Origin: Leclercia sp. LSNIH1
GTDB taxonomy: Bacteria; Pseudomonadota; Gammaproteobacteria; Enterobacterales; Enterobacteriaceae
NCBI RefSeq assembly: GCF_002902985.1
Contig: NZ_CP026169.1
Location: 1-58,627, forward strand
Direction of reading: 5' to 3'
Length of the DNA: 58,627 nucleotides
Shown: positions 1 to 12,096 of the stretch, piece by piece
How positions within the stretch are numbered: the first letter of the stretch is position 1
Layout: each line of letters starts with the position of its first letter
Position numbers and translations under genes: made by a program
The notes under the pieces: model-generated
Database searches by the model: none
Told to the model about the DNA's origin: nothing
The model's input: only the letters and a program-made list of their open reading frames with translations

Positions 1-327
1 GCAGCCAAAAAACGGGGAGTTGATGTGAAAATCGTAATTGATGAAAGGGGCAATACGGGGCGCGCCAGCATTGCGGCCATGAACTACATAGCGAACAGCG
101 GCATCCCTTTGCGTACTGACAGTGATTTCCCTATCCAGCATGACAAGGTGATCATCGTGGATAATGTGACCGTTGAAACTGGCAGCTTTAATTTCACCAA
201 AGCGGCCGAAACGAAAAACTCGGAGAATGCGGTGGTGATCTGGAACATGCCTAAGCTCGCTGAATCATTCCTCGAACACTGGCAAGACCGCTGGAATCGG
301 GGGAGAGACTACCGTTCCAGCTACTGA
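1..327 (+). CDS. nuc: Nuc endonuclease, C-terminal part (gene continues from 58421)
   Basis: This is the downstream part of a phospholipase D-superfamily nuclease. The frame is open from base 1 (AAKKRGVDVKIVID) to TGA at 325-327, and it joins exactly to the 69 codons at 58421-58627, giving 177 residues, the length known for Nuc of IncN plasmid pKM101. The HKD signature is visible as HDKVIIVDN followed by a GSFNFT motif. Family members work as dimers, usually in the periplasm, and hydrolyse nucleic acids without strong sequence preference. The gene is last in the tra operon after traG. Nuc is not known to be needed for transfer. The split is only an artefact of linearising a circle. Confidence 0.95.
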   Translation, partial: AAKKRGVDVKIVIDERGNTGRASIAAMNYIANSGIPLRTDSDFPIQHDKVIIVDNVTVETGSFNFTKAAETKNSENAVVIWNMPKLAESFLEHWQDRWNRGRDYRSSY

Positions 328-333
328 ATACTG

Positions 334-356
334 ACCGCCGAAAGGCGGTTTTTTTT
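334..356 (+). terminator. Rho-independent terminator after nuc
   Basis: The hairpin ACCGCCGAAAGGCGGT is followed by eight T. It closes the traL-nuc transcription direction and stands between nuc and the convergent end of fipA. The stretch from 360 to 500 holds no gene that I recognise. Confidence 0.85.
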
Positions 357-500
357 GTTCAAAGAAACTGATCTCAGTATCGCGCACGGGGCAGCTGGCC
401 AACGTCGCCGGCATCGCGCCGGCAAAAATCGAAAAACAGAAATATCAGCAAGATAGCTTAAACAGGTGTCGGGAAATTTCGTTGAGATATTTTGAAGGAA

Positions 501-790
501 TCACAGTGTAAGCAGGCGGCCTATTTCAAAAAAGGCGGCTGTACGGTAGTCACTGACTCTCTCGCAGATCTTCCCGCTCATGTACCAGTAATACCCGTCA
601 GTGCTGACAATATCGAGCAAATACCGCATATCATAAACCGTATCGGGTATTACCTCACCCTCACCGGCCAGAACGCCGCTGGCAATAGAATGGTTCCCTC
701 CTCGTACAAAGCCTATCCGCCAGGGCAACCACAAAGTAACGCGGTGGTTAATATCCTGTACCCACGGATTGCCCTTAGCGCTGCCTATAT
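501..790 (-). pseudogene. fipA: fipA, 3' part, separated from its 5' part by a transposon nest
   Basis: This open frame on minus runs from the TATAT duplication at 786-790 to a stop at 501. Joined to 16772-16431 with one copy of TATAT removed, the frame stays open: 114 codons plus 95 codons make a 208-residue protein of about 24 kDa. That is the size reported for FipA of pKM101, which blocks transfer of co-resident IncP plasmids. The position between nuc and traI also fits. The residues across the joint read ALADIGSAKGNPW. As it stands this part has no start and no promoter of its own, so the gene is inactivated. The name rests on size and position more than on recognised motifs. Confidence 0.75.
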
Positions 791-828
791 GGGGTCTGAG
801 GTCCAACCATGCGAAAAACCACGTTAAG
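791..828 (+). repeat. Left 38-bp terminal inverted repeat of the outer transposon
   Basis: It starts GGGGTCTGAGGTCC and ends ACCACGTTAAG. It pairs imperfectly with 16393-16430. The flank TATAT at 786-790 is the target duplication. Confidence 0.88.
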
Positions 829-1012
829 AAAGCAACCTTCTGAAAAGGCGACGTTTATCAGTTTTTTTTCCGGCCATAAAGGGGGCGGAAATTATTCCCT
901 GCACGGGTATTCGCAAGGATTTCGGTAGTGCTCTGGCTCTGCCCCCCATAACCTGGCGGACAGAGCATGATTGGGAAAGCGGTACCCTCACGGCAGAAAC
1001 GATTGACGCAGG

Positions 1013-1040
1013 CTATATTTCTATTATTCTGGAAATATAG
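1013..1040 (+). promoter_or_regulatory. Probable operator/promoter of the ArsR-type gene
   Basis: The arms CTATATTTC and GAAATATAG are perfect inverted repeats separated by 10 bases. They lie 14 bp before the ArsR-type start codon and beside a TTGACG hexamer. ArsR-family repressors bind such dyads over their own promoters, so autoregulation is the natural reading. This is inference from position and symmetry. Confidence 0.6.
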
Positions 1041-1054
1041 ATAAAGGAGGTATT

Positions 1055-1235
1055 ATGGATTTAAACACTGCTGCAAACGCACTTCGAGAACTGGGCCACC
1101 CGACACGTCTCAGCATATACCGGGAGCTGGTCAGGGCGGGTCATGAAGGCCTGCCGGTTGGCGAACTGCAGAAGCACCTTGAGATTCCTGCCTCCACGCT
1201 CAGCCATCATCTTTCAGCGCTGATATCCGCTGGAC
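1055..1235 (+). pseudogene. ArsR-family regulator, truncated by IS26
   Basis: About 60 residues of a winged-helix ArsR/SmtB-type repressor are left: an N-terminal helix, then ELGHPTRLSIYRELV and the recognition-helix region PASTLSHHLSALISAG. AAAGGAGG lies 6 bp before ATG. IS26 begins at 1236 and removes the C-terminal third, including wing and dimer helix; the frame then runs a few codons into IS26 and stops. The genes it once controlled are gone. No metal-binding ELCVCD motif is seen in what remains, so its effector is unknown. Confidence 0.8.
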
Positions 1236-1845
1236 GGCACTGTTGCAAATAGTCGGTGGTGATAAACTTATCATCCCCTTTTGCTGATGGAGCTGCACAT
1301 GAACCCATTCAAAGGCCGGCATTTTCAGCGTGACATCATTCTGTGGGCCGTACGCTGGTACTGCAAATACGGCATCAGTTACCGTGAGCTGCAGGAGATG
1401 CTGGCTGAACGCGGAGTGAATGTCGATCACTCCACGATTTACCGCTGGGTTCAGCGTTATGCGCCTGAAATGGAAAAACGGCTGCGCTGGTACTGGCGTA
1501 ACCCTTCCGATCTTTGCCCGTGGCACATGGATGAAACCTACGTGAAGGTCAATGGCCGCTGGGCGTATCTGTACCGGGCCGTCGACAGCCGGGGCCGCAC
1601 TGTCGATTTTTATCTCTCCTCCCGTCGTAACAGCAAAGCTGCATACCGGTTTCTGGGTAAAATCCTCAACAACGTGAAGAAGTGGCAGATCCCGCGATTC
1701 ATCAACACGGATAAAGCGCCCGCCTATGGTCGCGCGCTTGCTCTGCTCAAACGCGAAGGCCGGTGCCCGTCTGACGTTGAACACCGACAGATTAAGTACC
1801 GGAACAACGTGATTGAATGCGATCATGGCAAACTGAAACGGATAA
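1236..1845 (+). mobile_element. IS26, 3' truncated copy (IS6 family)
   Basis: The left inverted repeat GGCACTGTTGCAAA starts at 1236. The copy follows the intact IS26 at 15078-15897 base for base where I compared them, up to GATAA at 1841-1845. There a Tn2-type inverted repeat begins. The right 210 bp, including the right inverted repeat, are missing. tnpA starts at 1299 and keeps the three DDE catalytic positions (D in HMDETY, D in INTDKAP, E in NVIECDHG). It loses about 50 C-terminal residues and reads through into Tn2 sequence, so it is probably inactive. Confidence 0.93.
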
Positions 1846-3990
1846 GGGGTCTGACGCTCAGTGGAACGAAAACTCACGTTAAGCAACGTTTTCTGCCTCT
1901 GACGCCTCTTTTAATGGTCTCAGATGTCCTTTGGTCACCAGTTCTGCCAGCGTGAAGGAATAATGGCCGAGCATATTGATATGTCCGTGGCAAAGCGGGG
2001 AGAGGCGTGCGATATCTTCATCATTCAGTGTTTCACCCTGCGCCCGGAGATGATCCAGGGCTGCCTGCATATAAATAGTGTTCCATAACACGACGGCGTT
2101 AGTGACCAGCCCCAGTGTGCCCAGTTGATCTTCCTGACCGTCGGTATATCGTTTTCTTATCTCACCTTTTTGACCGTGACAGATGGCTCTGGCAACGGCA
2201 TGGCGACTTTCTCCCCGATTAAGCTGGGTCAGAATGCGCCGGCGGTAATCTTCATCATCAATATAATTAAGCAGATACAGCGTTTTGTTGATGCGCCCCA
2301 CTTCAATGATTGCCTGAGTCAGTCCGGAAGGACGTTCACTTTTCAGCAATGAACGGACCAGCACTGAAACCTGTACTTTGCCCAGCTTCAGGGAGCCAGC
2401 GGTCCGGATCATTTCGTCCCACTGAAGGACTATTTTTCGGGGATCTGATTGCCCTCTGGCAATATCATTCAGCACGCCATAGTCGGCATCATGGTCCATT
2501 CGCCAGAAAACCGAAGCACCGGCATCAGCCAGGCGTGGAGAAAACTGGTATCCCAGCAGCCAGAAAAGGCCAAAGACAAGTTCGCTGGCACCTGCTGTAT
2601 CGGTCATAATTTCGGTTGGATTCAGCCCGGTCTCCTGTTCCAGAAGACCTTCCAGCACAAAGATAGAGTCCCTCAGCGTCCCCGGTATAACGATGCCATG
2701 AAAGCCGGAATACTGATCGGACACAAAGTTGTACCAGGTGATCCCTCTGTTATTACCAAAGTATTTGCGGTTCGGTCCGGCATTGATTGTTCTGACTGGC
2801 GTAACAAAGCGCATTCCATCTGCAGATGCCACTTCTCCTCCACCCCATATCTGTGCCAGTGGCAGCGTTGCCTGAAAATCAACCAGTCTGGCATTAGCGC
2901 TGGTGATAGTTTCAGCCCGCAGATAGTTCGCTTTTGTCCAGTTCAGCCGGTGTCGGGTCAGTGCAGGAACATTTGATCTGATCAGTGGTTCCAGACCGAT
3001 ATTGCAGGCTTCAGCCATCAGCACGGCGCTGATGCTGACGGGCAGATCATCAACTCTGGCACTGGCTTCACTAGCATGGAAAAACTCATCAGCAAATCCG
3101 GTATGGGCGTTAATTTCGAGCAGCAACTCCGTTAAATCCACCGGAGGGAGTAGATCACTGATCATTTTGCTCAGTCGTTTCAGACTGTCCGGCTCATCAA
3201 GACTGGCGAGGGGAGAAATTGTCAACCGGGGCTTCGGGCCAGAAACATCGAGTTCGACAGCCTCATTTTCGCAAAGACGTGCAGCAACCTGTCTGTAACG
3301 ACTATCAAGCTGATGACCCAGAGATTTTATTGCTTCCTGCGGGTCTGTCGGGTGCCCCAAAGAACGATAAACCTTAATCCGGTTTGCCTGCCAGTCAGCA
3401 CCCTGTAGTAATCTTGCACGAGGATCTCCCCACCGGTTACTGCCGGTAACGTAGACATCCCTCCGCCTCAGACTATCCTGCAGTTTACTGAGAAAGCAGA
3501 GCGTGTATCCCCTGCGGGTGATATGTTTTTCCTTGTTAATCACCAGCCGTTTCCATGACCGACTGATAATTTCCGTTGGTGCGTCGTCAAAAAACTGCCG
3601 CCGTGAGCTGAACTCCCGGCTGAGGTAGTCACAGGCATTCAGAGTGGTAACCCCGGCAGGTGCGGATGAAAATTTAACGGTATTCAGCAGATGGGGCAGG
3701 AAACGACGAACGCGCCCGTACTGCTCCACCATTTCTTCATGAAAATTATCGTCTGAGGGCCGGGCAATTTCACGGACAAGCGTGATGATTTCAGCCAGCT
3801 TTTGCCTTGGGATGTAGCTGAACACCTCAGCACGAATCGATTCGTCCGGTGTTTCTTCTTTCAGCAGGTACGAACATGCGCTGGCGAGCGCCAATGCAGA
3901 TTTATCCAGATCCTTCAGCGAGCGGAGCCGTTTTTTCTGCCCAATCTTTCTGGCGTCACGGATGATAACGGCCAGCATGGCGTCCAGAAC
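1846..3990 (-). mobile_element. Tn2/Tn3-like transposon remnant (right end plus tnpA 3' part)
   Basis: The 38-bp Tn3-group inverted repeat at 1846-1883 (GGGGTCTGACGCTCAGTGGA at its outer end) directly abuts broken IS26. tnpA runs inward on minus. The Tn4401 terminal repeat interrupts it at 3991. tnpR, any bla gene and the left end are absent. Tn4401 inside a Tn2-like tnpA is a known arrangement on KPC plasmids. Confidence 0.9.
1879..3990 (-). pseudogene. tnpA: Tn2/Tn3-type TnpA transposase, N-terminally truncated
   Basis: The last 703 residues of a Tn3-family DDE transposase of about 1000 residues are present, from VLDAMLAVIIRDARKIGQ to the C-terminus EASEAENVA. The stop overlaps the inverted repeat, as in Tn3. 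The catalytic core is intact (for example MTDTAGASELVFGLFWLLGY). The first about 300 residues, which hold the terminal-repeat binding domains, were separated by Tn4401 insertion. A frame continues about 12 codons into the Tn4401 end but has no proper start. Inactive. Confidence 0.92.
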
Positions 3991-4143
3991 GGGGGGGTAA
4001 GCGGGAACCCCAGAAAATTCCGCCATTCCGCATTGTGGAATTTTTTGGGGGGGTGGTCCGCGGCATGACGACCCGCCAAAGGCTACCGCATCTATCTGAG
4101 GCGCTGTGGCGCGACGCTGAAACCCCGGGGAATTCCGCTACTC
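3991..4143 (-). mobile_element. Right-end fragment of Tn4401
   Basis: A G-rich terminal repeat of about 39 bp begins at 3991 (GGGGGGGTAAGCGGGAACCC). It fits a Tn4401 end inserted in Tn2 tnpA; AGAAC at 3986-3990 would be one copy of its target duplication. The fragment ends at 4143, where the Tn5403-like element enters, and resumes at 11949. The other Tn4401 end is absent, so the second duplication copy cannot be checked. The match to Tn4401 is from memory and context. Confidence 0.75.
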
Positions 4144-4181
4144 GGGGTCCGCTTGGAAAACGGAAAATATCCTACGCTAAG

Positions 4182-4446
4182 CCTATTTTTCGTACAGATT
4201 ACTTCATGGGTCTATGGTGATAGCTAAAAAATCACCAATACTACCTCACGAGTATGTTGATAGCTCATCGTACCCCGTATCAAGTTTGCATATACCAAGG
4301 AAGCGGAGACGAAAGACCACCTATTACTGAGGGATCCCCAGTAATGGGAGGGTAAAATGAAAGGTATAGTGCTACCAATTACTCACCGTCAGTCACGTAT
4401 CGCTGGATTAACTACGGCATTCGCAGCGAGATAAGTATTCCCCATG
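4182..4446. other. Non-coding, AT-rich stretch at the transposon left end
   Basis: I see no convincing gene, promoter or IS fragment here. Several short dyads occur, such as GGGATCCCC near 4332, but nothing that I can assign. Confidence 0.5.
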
Positions 4447-5442
4447 TTAAGCCAATAGCAATATAATTATCCATTTTAATTTCGGGCTAGCACCAGTGAA
4501 TTTTTTTGTTTTTACGAAAACTTTCAGTAAAAAGAAAATATCACTAAGGCTATATACACCTTTTATTAAATCTTTATATGCTATTTCTCTAACAAATAAC
4601 CGCCTGATTTTTTCTTTGTCCCTCACCTTTTTTCTATATAAACCTAGAAAGTGTCTAGCCTCATACAGGGCATGCCTAAACAGCGATACGCTCAAATCAT
4701 TATTTTTTATCGACTTTGCGTGACCGATGGTTTTAGATATTACATCAATATAGCATTCTGCTCGGACGTCGAAATAATCACCGCGATTTGTGATGGATTC
4801 ATTATTGTACTTGTAGGTGTAGTCCATATCTTTTGATATGTAGAAACGCCCATTTGCCAACGCCAATTCCATCGTCCATAAAATATCTTTATGACTCCGG
4901 CCATCATGAAATGACAGATTGTTATTCCTGATATAGTCAGATCTAACTATCTGTAACCAAAGGTAATGTGGCCATTCCCTGACTTTTACTGCGTGACTCA
5001 TCCACGCATTGCCGGATAAAACCTCATCATAAGGCTGGTTAGTATGCACGGGTTTTTTATTATCGCCTTCATGCCAAAGCTTCCAGGCATTGGACAAAAG
5101 CACATCAGCATTATGGCTGGAAGCCTGGATATACCTGTTATAAATGAATCCTTCAGACACATCGTCATCGGCATCCAGAAACATGACCCACTGGCCTTTA
5201 TGCTTGTCTAATCCATTATTTCTGGCCGCGTATACACCTTTATTATTTTGTTCAATCACTTGAACCCTGCCATCCTTTATGGAGTTAATTATCGTTGACG
5301 TGTTGTCTGAGGAGCCATCGTTAACGATAATAACTTCAATGTTGATCCTGTCTTCTATCAAGATATCTTCGATCAAGGATTTGATGGTTTTTTCTGCGTT
5401 GTAAACGGGGATTATTACACTCACCGCAATTTCATGTTTCAT
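4447..5442 (-). CDS. Family 2 glycosyltransferase (transposon cargo)
   Basis: This is a GT-A fold glycosyltransferase of 331 residues from ATG at 5442, which has GGAG 8 bp upstream. The N-terminus VSVIIPVYNAEKTI is the nucleotide-sugar binding start of GT2. VIIVNDGSSDNT and the metal-binding MFLDADDDV (a DXD-type motif) follow, and the region near YAARNNGLD is typical. The C-terminal third is basic and less conserved. Such enzymes add sugars to surface polysaccharide or lipid carriers; the substrate cannot be read from sequence. It is clearly AT-richer than the neighbouring uspA and sulP, which suggests separate acquisition. It lies 60 bp downstream of uspA on the same strand and may be co-transcribed. 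Confidence 0.85.
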   Translation of the reverse strand: MKHEIAVSVIIPVYNAEKTIKSLIEDILIEDRINIEVIIVNDGSSDNTSTIINSIKDGRVQVIEQNNKGVYAARNNGLDKHKGQWVMFLDADDDVSEGFIYNRYIQASSHNADVLLSNAWKLWHEGDNKKPVHTNQPYDEVLSGNAWMSHAVKVREWPHYLWLQIVRSDYIRNNNLSFHDGRSHKDILWTMELALANGRFYISKDMDYTYKYNNESITNRGDYFDVRAECYIDVISKTIGHAKSIKNNDLSVSLFRHALYEARHFLGLYRKKVRDKEKIRRLFVREIAYKDLIKGVYSLSDIFFLLKVFVKTKKFTGASPKLKWIIILLLA

Positions 5443-5502
5443 GTTCACTCCAGTAAATTGAACGTATTTATTTGTCCCCGGAGTTATTTCCGGGGACAAA
5501 AA

Positions 5503-6330
5503 TCACCTCAGCATTAAGAGTGGAATTTGTGTTTTTTCCAACATGGCGGTGGTGTTGCTGCCGATAAAGAATCGCCGCAATGGCGAATGGCCATAGGCAC
5601 CCATCACAATCAGGTTAATGCCGTTTTCATTAGCGTAACGGCAGAGCGCATCAGCAACGGATGTACCTTCCAGTATGTGGCTTTCGGTCGTAATGCCAGC
5701 CTCTTGCAGCACATTCTGTGCTTCCTGCAAGGTTCGTGTATCCCCCTTAACCATCACGATGTGGCAAACCAGACCATTGAGTAGCGGGCTAAGTGTCAGG
5801 CGCGTCAGGTTTTTGCGACTCTCATCGCTGCCATCATAGGCGAACATAACTTTGGTCGGTGTAGAATAAGCCTCCGGCACGATAAGTACCGGTTTTTTCT
5901 GCAGCCGAATAATTCTTTCTAGGTGGCTGCCAACCGGGTTCTGCGTTCCACGGCGGCCCAGCACCATCAGGCGAACATCCCCTAAATCAGCCAGGATTTC
6001 ATCCAACGCGCCATGTTTTTGCAGTAATTGAACATCAGCATGACCGGCATCATTCAGCAACTCCGCACAGCCAGCCAGTATGGCTTTGCCCTGCGCCATT
6101 AATAACCGACTACGCTCTCCTTCAACTTTCACCAGCTCTTCGGTGAGATGAGCCTGGCTATCAATGCCGATGCTTCCGGTCAAATCTGACACGGCAGGAT
6201 GCGCATCTTTCTCCAGTACGTGCAGCAGCGACAGAGGTGAATCCAGCAGAGCAGCGGCCCATGCCGCGTATTCACAAACCGCTCGGGTCGACGGCGAACC
6301 GTCAACGCAGGCAATAACGGTATTATTCAT
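5503..6330 (-). CDS. Tandem-domain universal stress protein (UspA family)
   Basis: 275 residues make two Usp domains. The first (1 to about 145) begins NNTVIACVDGSPSTRAVCEYA. The second starts near PTKVMFAYDGSDESRKNL and ends with the nucleotide-binding signature MGAYGHSPLRRFFIGSNT, which fits G-x2-G-x9-G-S. ATP-binding Usp proteins are cytosolic and modulate stress responses or partner proteins. It starts 18 bp after sulP and is surely in the same operon. SulP transporters and Usp proteins are recurrently paired, so a regulatory role for the transporter is plausible but inferred. The start has AGGAG about 7 bp upstream. Confidence 0.9.
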   Translation of the reverse strand: MNNTVIACVDGSPSTRAVCEYAAWAAALLDSPLSLLHVLEKDAHPAVSDLTGSIGIDSQAHLTEELVKVEGERSRLLMAQGKAILAGCAELLNDAGHADVQLLQKHGALDEILADLGDVRLMVLGRRGTQNPVGSHLERIIRLQKKPVLIVPEAYSTPTKVMFAYDGSDESRKNLTRLTLSPLLNGLVCHIVMVKGDTRTLQEAQNVLQEAGITTESHILEGTSVADALCRYANENGINLIVMGAYGHSPLRRFFIGSNTTAMLEKTQIPLLMLR

Positions 6331-6348
6331 TATCTGTTCTCCTGACTG

Positions 6349-7827
6349 TTAATGGCCGCCCATTAATTTTTCCACTTCTTCGGGTTTGTCATGCACCCCA
6401 AAGCGGTCAATAATGGTGCGGGTAGCCTGATTCATGCCACGGATTTCTACATCCGTACCTTCACGGCGGAACTTAATGACCACTCTGTCGAGTGCGCTGA
6501 CCGACGTAATATCCCAGAAGTGGGCGTGCGAGACGTCAATGATCACATGCTCCACCGCTTCACGGAAATCGAAGTGGCTCATAAACCGATCGGCAGAGGC
6601 GAAAAACACCTGGCCGGTTACGGCGTATGTCCGCGTTGACGCTTTGAGTTCGGATGACACCGCCATAAAACGGGACACTTTGCTGGCAAAGTTCAGTGAG
6701 GCGATCAGCACACCAGTCAATACGCCATACGCCAGATTATGCGTTGCTACCACCACGACTACGGTAGCCAGCATGACGACGCTGGTTGACAGTGGGTGGC
6801 TGCGCAAGTTGGTAATAGAGCGCCAGGAGAAGGTGCCAATAGAAACCATGATCATCACCGCTACCAGGGCCGCCATTGGGATCTGCGAAACCCAGTCACG
6901 CAGGAAGACCACCATACAAAGCAGGACGACGCCTGCGGAGAGTGCGGAGAGACGCCCACGCCCCCCGGATTTCACGTTGATCACCGACTGGCCGATCATC
7001 GCGCATCCGGCCATACCGCCAATAAATGCAGCGCCAATGTTGGCAACCCCTTGAGCCTTACACTCCCGGTTTTTATCGCTCGGCGTATCGGTCATGTCAT
7101 CCACAATGGTCGCGGTCATCATCGACTCAAGCAGCCCCACCACAGCAAGGCCGGCGGAATAAGGCAGAATGATTGATAGGGTATCGAAATTAAGCGGCAC
7201 ATCGGGTAACAGGAAGACCGGCAGACTGTCCGGCAACTTGCCCATGTCGCCGACGGTGCGTACGTCCAGATGCAGCCACATGGAGATCCCGGTCAGCACG
7301 ACGATACAGACCAGCGGCGAGGGGATGGTTTTATTGAGGTACGGGAACAGATAAATAATGCCTAGACCGGCCGCCGTCATGGCGTAAACGTGCCAGGTGA
7401 CGTTGGTCAACTCCGGCAACTGCGCCATGAAAATCAGGATCGCCAAGGCATTGACAAAACCGGTAACCACCGAGCGCGAAACATAACGCATCAGACTGCC
7501 AAGCTTTAAATAACCAGCAATAAGCTGAATCACACCAGTAAGCACAGTAGCGGCCAATAGATACTGTAGGCCGTGGTCTTTCACCAGCGTCACCATCAGC
7601 AGTGCCATCGCGCCGGTTGACGAAGAAATCATTCCTGGACGCCCACCGCAGATAGCGATTATCAGCGGGATACAAAACGCAGAGTAGAGCCCGACTTGCG
7701 GGTCAACGCCGGCGATGATGGAAAAGGCGATCGCTTCAGGAATAAGCGCAAGCGCGACAACAATACCGGCCAGTACGTCACCACGGACGTTACCCAGCCA
7801 GTCCTTACGCGTCGAGGACAGCAACAT
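6349..7827 (-). CDS. SulP-family anion transporter with STAS domain
   Basis: A 492-residue inner-membrane permease. It has about ten or more hydrophobic segments from residue 15 to 385, with the SulP hallmark region [20 protein letters not shown] followed by [12 protein letters not shown] cytosolic STAS domain follows from about 400 ([26 protein letters not shown]). SulP/SLC26 proteins carry sulfate, bicarbonate or other anions; the substrate here cannot be told from sequence. The gene is divergent from tnpR. It leads the cargo operon sulP-uspA-glycosyltransferase. No frameshift or truncation is seen. Confidence 0.93.
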
Positions 7828-8252
7828 AGTATTTTCTCAGTTTTAGAATACAGTCAGCCCGTAAAGGGCAAAAAAATTTAGATACGATAAAGCACATCCG
7901 CAGACGGGATGTTAAAGAGTGCGTGCTGAGGGTTACTCAGAACGACAGAGAAGGGGAAAACTCAGGGTGGCGTCATACGCATGGTCGTTTTTATTACTCC
8001 TTGATGGTCGGTGTGTACACCTTCAGGGATCAGATAAACCAGATGAAGATATTCAAGGCTGGCCGCGGAGTCTGCCAAGGCAAACCGCGTATTACTATAA
8101 ACGAAACTGAAACAGGGTCAATCATGGATTAAATGTGCCATTAATGTATACCTCAATGTCATAGCCTAAAGTGCCGCCATTTTCCCCTTGGATCATCACC
8201 TATCTGTCACGTACATTATGATCATCACTTAAACGTCATAAATGGGTGAAAA
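7828..8252. promoter_or_regulatory. Divergent sulP / tnpR control region with probable res site
   Basis: This 425-bp gap separates sulP (minus) from tnpR (plus). In Tn3-family elements the resolution site lies directly upstream of tnpR. From about 8135 to 8255 there are degenerate inverted copies of TGTCAY/ACGTCATA-type words (TGTCATAG, CTGTCACGTACATT, AACGTCATAAATG), as expected for resolvase subsites. Short open frames exist at 7919-8132, but none has recognisable homology or a good start. Confidence 0.5.
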
Positions 8253-8876
8253 ATGTACATTCACGGTTACCTCCGCGCATCAACAAAAGAACAGGATGCT
8301 CTCCGAGCAAAAAATAGGATGAAAGCCTTTGTTGAAGAAAAAGGATTTCGACTGGCCAGTTGGTACACCGAAAATGTATCCGGGGCATCACTTCAACGGC
8401 CAGAACTTTTACGGCTACTTGATGATGCTGCACCTGGTGACATTATTCTCATCGAGCAAGTTGATCGCCTTTCTCGCCTGGATGAAGAGGGCTGGCAAAA
8501 ATTAAAGCATCTTATCCAGGAAAAACACCTTGTGGTTGTCAGTCTTGACCTCCCGACGAGCCATATGGCTCTTGCAACACATGCTGGCGATGATTTTACC
8601 CTTGCAATGCTTAAGGCTATTAACGGAATGATGCTTGATATGCTGGCCGCCATAGCTCGCAAAGACTATCAGGATCGTCGCCGGCGCCAAGAGGAAGGGA
8701 TAGCGAAAGCCAAGGTAGCCGGTAAATTTCGGGGACGTCAGGCAGATCATCAATTGCATGAAAAAATCATAGAGCTTCGGGTTAAAAATAGACAGAGCAT
8801 CCGTGATACCGCGAGGTTGTGTGGAGTTTCAGAACGAACGGTTATACGCATTGTTAAACTTAAAGCATGTTCTTGA
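8253..8876 (+). CDS. tnpR: TnpR serine resolvase of the Tn5403-like transposon
   Basis: A 207-residue serine recombinase. The N-terminal catalytic domain starts YIHGYLRASTKEQDA with the active serine in RAST. The IEQVDRLSR motif follows, and a long helix leads to the C-terminal helix-turn-helix (SIRDTARLCGVSERTVIRIVK). It resolves cointegrates formed by TnpA at res and usually represses tnpR/tnpA transcription. tnpA follows 54 bp downstream on the same strand. Full length with no defect. Confidence 0.93.
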   Translation: MYIHGYLRASTKEQDALRAKNRMKAFVEEKGFRLASWYTENVSGASLQRPELLRLLDDAAPGDIILIEQVDRLSRLDEEGWQKLKHLIQEKHLVVVSLDLPTSHMALATHAGDDFTLAMLKAINGMMLDMLAAIARKDYQDRRRRQEEGIAKAKVAGKFRGRQADHQLHEKIIELRVKNRQSIRDTARLCGVSERTVIRIVKLKACS

Positions 8877-8930
8877 TGCGTATACTTTGAACGTCCAAGC
8901 GGACAGTGTCCGTATGCAGGGAGTGCATTT

Positions 8931-11915
8931 ATGCCACGGCGACAGATACTGAGTAGTGATGAAAAAGAACGCTTACTGGTTGTGCCGGATGATGACATCC
9001 TGCTAACCAGGATGTGTTTTTTAAGTGAGCAGGATCTGGTTCTCATCAACAAACACCGGAGACCCGCTAACCGCCTGGGCTTTGCCATTTTACTCTGTTA
9101 TCTGCGGGGACCGGGTTTTACTCCAGACAAAAACAGTCTCCCTCACGATGGCGTTATGTCCAGGGTGGCAGAGAGATTGAAACTTCAACCTGATTTATGG
9201 CGAGAGTACGCAGCGAGGGAGGAAACCCGTTGGGAGCATCTTGCCGAACTCTATCGCTACTTGCGATTAGCGCCTTTCAGCAGGTCACTGCAAAAAACAT
9301 GCATCCGCCATTTATATCCGCATGCCATGCGGACCGACAAAGGCCTGATTCTTGCTGAAGAGATGCTCGCCTGGTTGCACAACAACAACGTTATTTTCCC
9401 TTCCGTTGATGTGATGGAGCGAACCCTTGCTGAAGCCGCAACACTTGCCGACAGAGCCGTATTTTCTACACTGACGACGCAACTGGAACAACGACATAAA
9501 ACAGCACTGGATAATCTGCTTGCATCAGGTGATGAGCAACTTTCCCGTCTTGCCTGGATGCTTCAGCCCCCGGGTAAAATTAACGGTAAAAACGTGCTGC
9601 AACATATTGATCGGTTGAATGCCATTGAGGGGTTGGCACTGCCGGAAGGTATTACGCTTTCCGTTCACCAGAACCGACTGCTGAAACTGGCACGCGAAGG
9701 TCGGAAAATGAGTAGCAGGGACTTGGCAAAATTCTCAGGCACACGTCGTTATGCCATGCTGGTTTGTATTATCTCAGAAGCAAGGGCCACGCTTACCGAT
9801 GAAATCATCGAACTACACGAACGTATCCTGGGCAGCTTGTTCAGCAGGGCAAAGCGCACACAAGCCGAACGGCTTCAGAAAACAGGAAAACTCATCCAGA
9901 GTAAGTTAAGGCAATATCTTACTGTTGGCCAGGCGCTGCTAAACGCACGGGAGTCAGGAGAAGATCCCTGGGCGGCGATAGAAGACGTACTTCCCTGGCC
10001 GGAATTTATCACCAGTCTGGAGGAAACACAGTTTCTGGCTCGAAAGGATAATTTTGATCCACTTCATTTGCTCACCGAAAAATACAGCACGCTGCGTAAA
10101 TATGCGCCCCGTATGTTGTCTGCATTGCAGTTCAGTGCAGCTCCTTCAGCACTGCCACTCGGTAATGCGCTGGATACCGTCAGAGAAATGTACCGCAAAC
10201 AACTCCGCAAGGTTCCGTCAACAGCGCCAGTAAAGTTTATCCCTGAGAGCTGGAAAAAGTTGGTAATAACGCCATCGGGTATCGATCGCCGGTATTATGA
10301 ATTCTGTGTACTGAATGAGCTGAAAGGCGCATTGCGATCTGGTGATATCTGGGTTAGAGGATCACGACGCTACAGGAATTTTGACGATTACCTCATTCCT
10401 CCTGCTGATTTTGAAAAATCACTCAAAGAGAAACAGTTACAGCTTGCCATTCCGACAGACTGCCAGGAATACCTTCACTCCCGTATGACACTGCTGGCGT
10501 CGCGACTGGAAGAGGTCAATGCGATGGCGATTGCCGGTGATTTGCCTGATGTTGATATATCGGACAAAGGTGTGAAGGTCACGCCTCTTGATAACAACGT
10601 TCCTTCGACTGTATCACCGTTTGCCAACCTGGTTTACGGCATGCTGCCGCACCCAAAAATTACCGAGATATTAGATGAGGTGGACAGTTGGACGGGATTT
10701 ACCCGCCACTTTACTCACCTCAAAAATAATCACGTCAGACCAAAAGACAAAAAGCTGTTACTGACCACCATCCTGGCAGATGGTATCAACCTGGGACTGA
10801 CTAAAATGGCAGAATCCTGCCCAGGAACCACAAAAGCGTCGCTGGAAGGCATTCAGGCATGGTACATCAGGGATGAAACGTATGCAGCCGCGCTTGCCGA
10901 ACTGGTGAATGCACAAAAAAAGTGCCCACTGGCAGCATCATGGGGGGACGGTACAACGTCATCCTCCGACGGCCAGAATTTTCGAGTCGGAAGTCATGGC
11001 CGCTATGCCGGACAGGTGAATTTAAAGTACGGTCAGGAACCCGGCGTGCAGGTTTATACACATATATCAGACCAATACAGCCCATTTTATACCAAAGTGA
11101 TCAGCCGGGTCAGGGACTCTACCCATGTGCTGGATGGGTTGCTCTATCACGAAAGCGACCTGGAAATTACGGAGCATTACACCGATACAGCGGGTTTCAC
11201 TGAACATGTTTTTGCGCTAATGCATCTACTTGGGTTTGCATTTGCACCAAGGATCCGGGATCTCCATGACAAACGGCTATTCATTCATGGAAAGGCGGAA
11301 AAATATTCTGGGCTTCAGTCGATCATATCCACGACCAGTCTGAATCTCAAAGAAATTGAGACACACTGGAATGAGGTACTGCGCCTGGCGACCTCGATCA
11401 AGCAGGGCACGGTAACCGCCTCGCTGATGTTAAAAAAGTTGGCCAGCTACCCCAAACAAAACGGCCTGGCAAAAGCGTTACGGGAAATTGGCCGTATCGA
11501 GCGAACGTTGTTTATGCTGGACTGGTTTCGCGATCCGGCCCTGCGTCGTCGTGTGCAAGCCGGTTTAAATAAGGGTGAAGCCCGCAATGCGCTTGCGCGG
11601 GCCGTTTTTATGCACCGGTTGGGTGAAATAAGAGACAGGGGGCTGGAAAATCAAAGCTATCGCGCCAGTGGGCTGACGCTGTTGACTGCGGCGATCACGT
11701 TGTGGAACACGGTGTATATAGAAAGGGCCATCGAATCACTAAAACGAAAGGGGCTCCAGATTAATGAGCCGTTGGTTTCTCACCTGTCCCCTCTGGGCTG
11801 GGAGCATATCAACCTGAGCGGAGATTACATCTGGCGTAATAATCTTAAGCTGGGATCCGGTAAATATCGACCGTTACGCACAGTTGATGTCAGTCTGTAC
11901 AAAAAACAGGCTTAG
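8931..11915 (+). CDS. tnpA: TnpA transposase, Tn5403 type (Tn3 family)
   Basis: A 994-residue DDE transposase, full length for the Tn3 family. The N-terminus PRRQILSSDEKERLL is the DNA-binding region. The C-terminal half holds the catalytic core, with the acidic triad region including WGDGTTSSSDGQNF, ITEHYTDTAGFTEHVFALMHLLG and RIERTLFMLDW. The stop codon lies inside the right inverted repeat, as is usual in this family. It is only distantly related to the Tn2 TnpA at 1879-3990, so the two would not be expected to act on each other's ends. Confidence 0.93.
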   Translation: MPRRQILSSDEKERLLVVPDDDILLTRMCFLSEQDLVLINKHRRPANRLGFAILLCYLRGPGFTPDKNSLPHDGVMSRVAERLKLQPDLWREYAAREETRWEHLAELYRYLRLAPFSRSLQKTCIRHLYPHAMRTDKGLILAEEMLAWLHNNNVIFPSVDVMERTLAEAATLADRAVFSTLTTQLEQRHKTALDNLLASGDEQLSRLAWMLQPPGKINGKNVLQHIDRLNAIEGLALPEGITLSVHQNRLLKLAREGRKMSSRDLAKFSGTRRYAMLVCIISEARATLTDEIIELHERILGSLFSRAKRTQAERLQKTGKLIQSKLRQYLTVGQALLNARESGEDPWAAIEDVLPWPEFITSLEETQFLARKDNFDPLHLLTEKYSTLRKYAPRMLSALQFSAAPSALPLGNALDTVREMYRKQLRKVPSTAPVKFIPESWKKLVITPSGIDRRYYEFCVLNELKGALRSGDIWVRGSRRYRNFDDYLIPPADFEKSLKEKQLQLAIPTDCQEYLHSRMTLLASRLEEVNAMAIAGDLPDVDISDKGVKVTPLDNNVPSTVSPFANLVYGMLPHPKITEILDEVDSWTGFTRHFTHLKNNHVRPKDKKLLLTTILADGINLGLTKMAESCPGTTKASLEGIQAWYIRDETYAAALAELVNAQKKCPLAASWGDGTTSSSDGQNFRVGSHGRYAGQVNLKYGQEPGVQVYTHISDQYSPFYTKVISRVRDSTHVLDGLLYHESDLEITEHYTDTAGFTEHVFALMHLLGFAFAPRIRDLHDKRLFIHGKAEKYSGLQSIISTTSLNLKEIETHWNEVLRLATSIKQGTVTASLMLKKLASYPKQNGLAKALREIGRIERTLFMLDWFRDPALRRRVQAGLNKGEARNALARAVFMHRLGEIRDRGLENQSYRASGLTLLTAAITLWNTVYIERAIESLKRKGLQINEPLVSHLSPLGWEHINLSGDYIWRNNLKLGSGKYRPLRTVDVSLYKKQA

Positions 11916-12096
11916 CGTAGGATATTTTCCGTTTTCCAAGCGGACCCCTACTCCAGTTCCAGGTCCGCAATAGTTCGTCCAGGTCGGGTGGCGTACGCCG
12001 GAAACGCCGATTTTTCCGCAACCGTTTCTGCGTTGTCGGCAAGGTGGTCTCAGAGAGCGCTCAAGAAGCGGTTTTTCTCGTATGTTTAGCTACGGT

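Follow-up and report, generated by a model that had tools for sequence, protein, structure and literature searches.

A Tn3-family transposon of 7,805 bp occupies positions 4144–11948 of a 58,627-nucleotide stretch of DNA from Leclercia sp. LSNIH1 (contig NZ_CP026169.1), called the window below. The transposon is complete, recent and mobile. Besides tnpR and tnpA it carries a cargo of three genes, all on the minus strand in the order sulP–usp–GT2, encoding an anion transporter, a universal stress protein (Usp) and a glycosyltransferase. Upstream of sulP lies a short open reading frame (ORF), MRMTPP-stop, a new element on which the original prediction for this DNA, made from the sequence alone, had not remarked. 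The kind of transposon and the sulP–usp passenger are known; what is new is probably the upstream leader ORF as a control element. We consider it reasonably probable that the cargo is a portable transporter/Usp operon, its transporter of the SLC26Dg type, with a TnaC-like, Rho-linked stalling leader. The coordinates of all features are given in Table 1.

Table 1. Features of the transposon, its cargo and its insertion site (window positions).
Feature	Position	Strand	Basis
Left target-site duplication, TACTC	4139..4143	.	Read directly; empty site in L189
Left 38-bp terminal inverted repeat	4144..4181	+	Identical to right end
GT2 glycosyltransferase, third cargo gene, ATG at 5442	4447..5442	-	Pfam PF00535
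usp, tandem two-domain universal stress protein	5503..6330	-	Pfam PF00582, two stretches
sulP, SLC26/SulP anion transporter with STAS domain, SLC26Dg type	6349..7827	-	Pfam PF00916 (Sulfate_transp) and PF01740 (STAS)
Leader block kept across vehicles	7828..8002	-	77-84% identity over 155-178 nt in other enterobacterial loci
Pyrimidine/C-rich patch right after leader stop, rut-like by composition	7937..7961	-	Read directly
Leader ORF, MRMTPP-stop	7962..7982	-	AAGGAG upstream; GGAG-to-ATG spacing 14 nt
Candidate sigma-70-like promoter for the cargo operon, TTGACC-16-TATAGT	8094..8121	-	Consensus match only; 1 found, 0.9 expected
tnpR, serine resolvase, 207 aa, full-length	8253..8876	+	Pfam PF00239 (Resolvase)
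tnpA, Tn3-family transposase, 994 aa, full-length	8931..11915	+	Pfam PF01526, PF13700; NF033527
Right 38-bp terminal inverted repeat	11911..11948	-	Identical to left end
Right target-site duplication, TACTC	11949..11953	.	Read directly

A Thr-Pro-Pro-stop leader ORF precedes sulP

Similarity between the enterobacterial vehicles of sulP ends beyond about 155–178 bp before the gene, and within the shared block the leader peptides of the relatives read MRLTPP or MRITPP. Upstream ORFs (uORFs) were scored at 97 sulP loci, a set that includes the 80 best genome loci and from which the duplicates L001 and L003 and pieces of the own genome were left out. A uORF ending in Thr-Pro-Pro-stop (T-P-P-stop) was present within 450 nt before sulP at 53 of the 97 loci (38 of the 80 genome loci), compared with none of 681 control ORFs from the same DNA, and a uORF ending in any Pro-Pro-stop was present at 60 of the 97, compared with 19 of the 681. 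Among controls with at least 200 nt of intergenic DNA upstream, the corresponding counts were 0/169 and 4/169. Counting named taxa only, the Pro-Pro-stop leaders of the 80 genome loci span 24 genera and 16 families. A fresh set of 49 loci, none overlapping the first, was then obtained from a draw of 369 genomes of the same class as Leclercia; it consists of 29 loci as returned (own copy L128 excluded) and 20 taken down the ranking, skipping a partial match in G138 and taking none below 63% identity. Pro-Pro-stop uORFs, eight of them T-P-P-stop, were found at 15 of these 49 loci (Fisher test versus the 681 controls, 2e-10). SulP paralogues behaved differently, with a Pro-Pro-stop leader in 0 of 20 that were hand-picked from the matches of 43–47% identity in the same draw. 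Across the own genome the T-P-P-stop pattern matched five times, versus four times in a reversed control, and two of the five matches are sulP leaders. No leader peptide for sulP was found among the papers listed in the literature searches, which were mostly without subscription papers.

The T-P-P-stop end is conserved with synonymous codon change. In the 53 leaders Thr is encoded by ACG (46), ACT (6) or ACA (1), the first Pro by CCA (29) or CCG (24) and the second by CCC (33), CCT (14) or CCA (6), the search pattern itself prescribing the initial CC of both Pro codons; the stop codon is TGA in 22, TAG in 20 and TAA in 11. The triplet that follows ACNCCNCCN is a stop codon in 53 of 70 instances upstream of sulP and 9 of 13 in the fresh set, compared with 1 of 49 among controls. 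The part of the peptide before T-P-P has one to eleven residues, as in MTVLQTLYWQPTPP (Tn1403 gene order), MTLTPP (Acinetobacter) and MSITPP (Vibrio), and 32 of the 53 peptides are six residues long (24 starting with ATG, six with GTG and two with TTG). It is also conceivable, however, that the conserved stretch, ACGCCRCC plus the C-rich patch behind it, is a binding site in RNA or DNA and that the ORF is incidental. The preference for ACG as the Thr codon would fit such a site, as would the finding of a Shine-Dalgarno tetramer at none of the 15 fresh uORFs. The recurrence of a stop after ACNCCNCCN with letters that vary among all three stop codons, the varying third bases of both Pro codons, and an in-frame start close upstream that so often yields six residues argue against it, and we regard a binding site with an incidental ORF as improbable.

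A C-rich patch follows the leader stop codon

The first 25 nt after the leader stop are C-rich and G-poor. Over 75 leaders they contain 6.7 YC dimers, compared with 2.7–3.8 in the other bins, and the 50 nt after the stop contain 10.2 YC dimers (n = 52), compared with 4.7 in intergenic controls (n = 507). In composition such a patch resembles a Rho utilization (rut) site. Alternatively, the T-P-P-stop ORF could control an intrinsic terminator or free the ribosome-binding site of sulP. In Methylobacter (L037, L058) and Aeromonas (L079), the stretch from the ORF to sulP does contain clean hairpin-plus-T-run sites, and in the window a 6-pair hairpin at 7912–7894 passes the terminator scan (one found, 0.5 expected). 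Such terminator-like sites occur, however, in only 10 of 54 leaders, versus 9 of 162 shuffles and 8 of 20 loci without a uORF; the spacing to sulP ranges from 56 to 386 nt, and the downstream feature that the leaders have in common is the C-rich patch right after the stop. Control by way of a terminator or the ribosome-binding site is, in our judgement, unlikely.

An Rfam scan of the window before sulP gave no riboswitch at the gathering score. The single promoter-like site lies outside the conserved block, so that each vehicle may provide a promoter of its own and the attenuator move along with the genes.

A proposed stalling leader

In TnaC, the leader peptide of the Escherichia coli tryptophanase operon, the stalled ribosome has Pro24 in its P site and UGA in its A site and hides from Rho the rut site immediately downstream (PMC8429421). 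The sulP leader resembles TnaC in ending with Pro at the stop codon, and by its composition the stretch directly behind could be a rut site. In contrast to TnaC, with its 24 residues and tryptophan-sensing sequence, the peptides described here have 4 to 14 residues and only T-P-P-stop in common, and the window peptide has six residues and no Trp. By analogy, the leader would work like TnaC but is no TnaC.

We propose that a ribosome on the short leader ORF would pause at Pro-Pro-stop, where peptide bond formation and release would be slow. The paused ribosome would shield the C-rich stretch beginning at the stop codon, and RNA polymerase would reach sulP–usp; departure of the ribosome would expose this stretch and lead to an early end of transcription, most likely by Rho. 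A condition that prolongs the stall would turn sulP–usp on. Since the peptide is far shorter than TnaC, the likelier cause of the stall would be the chemistry of Pro-Pro-stop itself, through EF-P, release factors, the supply of proline or a small molecule acting at that point. Translation of the ORF, the arrest, Rho and the inducing signal are steps that we infer, as are the substrate and the role of Usp considered below.

We see an even chance that a C-terminal T-P-P-stop with a C-rich patch behind it defines a new class of arrest leader, one that would control a mobile transporter/Usp operon in many Gammaproteobacteria and move with that operon as one unit between unrelated vehicles (at least three Tn3-family types, ars-linked plasmids and Acinetobacter plasmids). 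Because leader and operon would move together in this way, the sensor would be part of the cargo. If, as seems to be the case, a stalling micro-ORF switches the operon, a reporter could be used to screen for the inducing condition, and a T-P-P-stop arrest motif, if true, would offer a simple model of gene control by proline and termination.

Several observations weigh against a stalling, Rho-linked leader. No Pro-Pro-stop leader is present at 37 of the 97 loci and 34 of the 49 fresh loci; the 97 loci contain near-duplicates, the locus sets are not independent, and the counts ignore kinship. Of the 60 discovery uORFs, 17 have a Shine-Dalgarno tetramer in front, compared with 36 of 1,200 random positions, and the fresh uORFs have none, as described above; in the window the Shine-Dalgarno spacing is long. 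Thr is nearly always ACG, so a constraint at the RNA level is possible, and the short peptides, unlike TnaC, have no common N-terminus. Downstream of the stop, fresh-set leaders without a uORF are also somewhat YC-rich (7.1 per 50 nt, versus 10.0 after a uORF), the predicted leader RNA structure showed no compensatory change in 21 pairs and no covariation, and the count of terminator-like sites is a weak signal.

SulP is related to SLC26Dg

Over its full length, STAS domain included, the window SulP shares 59% identity with SLC26Dg from Deinococcus geothermalis (PDB 5DA0, 5IOF) (598.7 bits against 5DA0 over residues 6–492; 288 of 488 columns identical), compared with only 126.1 bits for BicA. 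NCBIfam scores fell below the cutoffs for SulP in general (282 versus 380), DauA (211 versus 614) and BicA (167 versus 880). Glu31 of the window SulP aligns with SLC26Dg residue 38, which we take to have a role in proton coupling. Fumarate transport by SLC26Dg has been measured in proteoliposomes (PMC6497670). Because this closest solved relative moves fumarate and BicA is far off, SulP is probably a proton-coupled, carboxylate-type anion symporter, a reading that we favour over a bicarbonate or sulfate pump; it counts against this reading that it draws on one relative at 59% identity.

Bicarbonate or sulfate supply is what the original prediction had proposed for the cargo. Published names speak of a sulfate permease, and some records label the protein or its relatives BicA or DauA, consistent with a supply module. 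Scores under the cutoff for all three NCBIfam models, and SLC26Dg as the nearest solved relative, argue against it, and we think a supply module unlikely. The kinship with SLC26Dg, for which there are solved structures and a working fumarate assay, gives a starting point for substrate tests. No link of SLC26Dg to Usp or to transposons was found among the papers listed in the literature search, nor, in the parts of the sources available, a functional test of the sulP–uspA pair.

sulP is under strong purifying selection, with a dN/dS of 0.03 between the two transposon lineages described below and of 0.006 between L018 and L015. A sulP block that is about 10% divergent (window 6144–7744) between sister transposons whose tnpA genes differ by 1.6% points to allele replacement by recombination. 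Because sulP has probably been exchanged between lineages, part of its selection signal may arise outside the transposon.

Usp is a regular partner and GT2 is not

At 76 of the 80 best genome loci, Usp is encoded downstream of SulP and on its strand, at 75 of them as the immediate neighbour, and at 44 of the 49 fresh loci usp follows sulP within 800 nt; at L067 a Tn3 element separates the two genes. By gene order, the tandem Usp is a regular partner of SulP. No third fixed partner gene emerged from the 80 loci, where ArsR and an ABC-type ATPase came next with 11 of 80 each, the ATPase at scattered distances. The dN/dS of usp, about 0.24 to 0.25, is looser than that of sulP. Judged by sequence, at these ratios (0.03 and 0.24), neither sulP nor usp appears to be silent and decaying, a possibility that had been raised together with the prediction.

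GT2 was matched in 60 plasmid records, 25 at at least 99% and 35 at 95–99% identity, and these two bands would fit the two transposon lineages, the matching having been made by GT2 and not by the transposon in each record. In all three copies of the 96% lineage that were read (L003, L004, L186), GT2 is frame-shifted near its end and stops after 249 residues, compared with 331 in the window, while the shared part looks constrained (dN/dS 0.08). Because it is out of frame and shortened in these sister copies, GT2 is not essential, and the surface change that had been suggested as its contribution loses its footing.

Structure and mobility of the transposon

The 38-bp inverted ends start with GGGG, as expected for the Tn3 family, and their inverted match extends past 38 bp to 55 nt at 96%. 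TnpA scored 501.9 bits against PF01526 (Tn3 DDE domain) and 1203.9 bits against NF033527. The empty site is preserved in plasmid pKPC-349c (L189), which joins the left flank to the right flank with a single TACTC (200 of 200 bases compared). Other copies of the element occupy different sites with 5-bp duplications of their own (TAAAA, ATCTT, TAATA and TGGTA), and together with TACTC such duplications are known from five distinct insertion sites. A second copy of 7,805 bp with zero differences lies on another contig of the same genome (C2, 44978–50622 and 1–2161; the window is contig C3). Their identity makes it likely that the element has recently passed from one of these replicons to the other. 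The C2 copy is without a target duplication (flanks ATAAA/TTGAT), as are copies L183 and L004, and its left flank is that of the Leclercia plasmid L183 (400 of 400 bases); on the strength of the missing duplication and the shared flank, C2 may have been the donor and C3 the target. The earlier description of a complete, recent and mobile unit is thus upheld by the identical ends, the TACTC duplication, full-length tnpR and tnpA, the empty site and the identical second copy. Its description of the cargo as one for anion transport and stress rather than resistance, near a KPC gene, likewise agrees with the Pfam domains and with a blaKPC score of 684.8 bits against NF012141 (cutoff 625).

At least 80% of the element was present in 52 of 72,556 plasmid records. 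Among the matches listed there are two lineages, about 100% and about 96% identical to the window element, and in 28 of 40 listed records the match ends symmetrically in both terminal repeats (query 27–7789). In the two copies that were read, IS4321 accounts for the lost tips at both ends of L003, and IS5075 for the one at the right end of L001. Placed within the terminal repeats in this way, IS5075 or IS4321 may immobilise the transposon. Left of the insertion, on the minus strand at window 1879–4026, a 715-aa Tn3-family transposase ORF matched its profile only from position 278 and looks N-terminally truncated.

Relation to Tn5403 and to other Tn3 vehicles

The element had been called Tn5403-like. 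Tn5403 has been placed on p271A (PMC3490853), and the p271A copy, which bears the NCBI name 'Tn3-like element Tn5403 family transposase', was used as the reference. The two elements share membership of the Tn3 family, ends of 38 bp (PMC3490853) and a duplication of 5 bp (PMC5142620). Their TnpA and TnpR proteins, however, are only 34% and 27% identical, the best match between ends is 21 of 38 bases, and the window end gave no match in p271A with up to three mismatches allowed; on these values kinship with Tn5403 was rejected. NZ_CP050368, also tried as a Tn5403 reference, had no match to the window tnpA, tnpR or end. Relatives of about 80% identity among the E. coli records listed carry only the name 'Tn3 family transposase', and no published name for the window element was found in the literature searched.

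A closer relative is the vehicle of L018 (Klebsiella oxytoca pKOX100_2) and L028 (Kluyvera cryocrescens), which has a tnpA 79% identical in nucleotides, related ends and a sulP–usp cargo. It differs in an unrelated TnpR (31% amino acid identity) and in a cargo from another clade, which shares 96–98% identity with L015 and L029, two ars-linked loci. A common origin of both cargoes in one capture event was rejected by the approximately unbiased (AU) test (p = 3.6e-5 for sulP and 6.5e-92 for usp, for a group picked after the identities were seen). Two related Tn3 vehicles with unlike resolvases appear, on this phylogenetic evidence, to have acquired sulP–usp independently, which is a new detail. 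On an IncHI1B-type plasmid of E. coli (L016), sulP–usp lies between two ends (5603, 9002), with a tnpA remnant of an L018-type transposon; there the cargo has therefore outlived its vehicle.

sulP–usp as a mobile passenger

Tn6050 of Cupriavidus metallidurans CH34 carries a sulfate permease, UspA and a DksA-like protein, and Tn1013, Tn6001, Tn1403 and Tn1404* are named as carrying the permease/UspA module in full or in part (PMC2864759). A sulP–uspA dif module has been published from Acinetobacter (PMC6449649), and another paper lists sup and uspA for the backbones or islands of Tn6022 and Tn6019 (PMC7253598). Because these accounts exist, the pair is not the undescribed system that the original prediction took it for.

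The window cargo has the order of the module, a sulfate permease gene followed by uspA. In place of a dksA-like third gene it has GT2, and the window was without a match to the single DksA reference used. Like Tn6050, Tn1013, Tn6001, Tn1403 and Tn1404*, which are known here by description only, the element combines a Tn3-family transposon with a permease and UspA module; unlike the Tn6050/Tn1403 kind, it has neither dksA nor yjiK, and its gene order is different. SulP and Usp are about 76% and 44% identical to those of L022, which has the order sulP–usp–dksA–yjiK, and the loci of this order (L022, L065, L067, L075 and L076) also have a T-P-P-stop leader. The Acinetobacter modules, known likewise by description, are a gene pair of this kind that is also found on mobile DNA, and the Acinetobacter loci L024, L025 and L106 have MTLTPP leaders. 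These modules differ in being moved by Xer/dif or Tn7-like machinery and not by Tn3; L025 has sulP without usp.

A SulP at least 60% identical to that of the window is encoded on 1,634 of the 72,556 plasmid records, and resistance transposons, islands and plasmids often carry the sulP–uspA pair. A Staphylococcus epidermidis plasmid (L026, 6255–8133) holds a related pair in which Usp has the size of a single domain and a Pro-Pro-stop leader is absent. On the 11-kb Acinetobacter lwoffii plasmid L025, an nhaA-I riboswitch lies upstream of sulP, and crcB with a fluoride riboswitch adjoins (riboswitch coordinates 4467–4517, plus strand, and 7594–7661, minus strand).

Linkage to arsenic genes

ars genes other than arsR lie in the flanks of 6 of the 80 genome loci (L029, L030, L032, L033, L051 and L062) and near 6 of 18 plasmid loci (L013, L014, L015, L019, L020 and L021, among L001–L004 and L013–L026). 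The several gene orders in which sulP–usp stands near ars genes suggest repeated linkage, the counts being without a background rate. A cargo that helps against arsenic or other oxyanions would be consistent with so frequent a neighbourhood of ars operons. The reference set, however, consisted of a few ars proteins only, and most chromosomal copies, as well as the transposon itself, are without ars genes; we hold an arsenic role to be quite unlikely. In Klebsiella (L013), a fluoride riboswitch (4236–4306, minus strand) precedes crcB, next to nhaA, on the same plasmid segment as usp–sulP and an ars operon, and this arrangement of genes is repeated in Enterobacter (L019).

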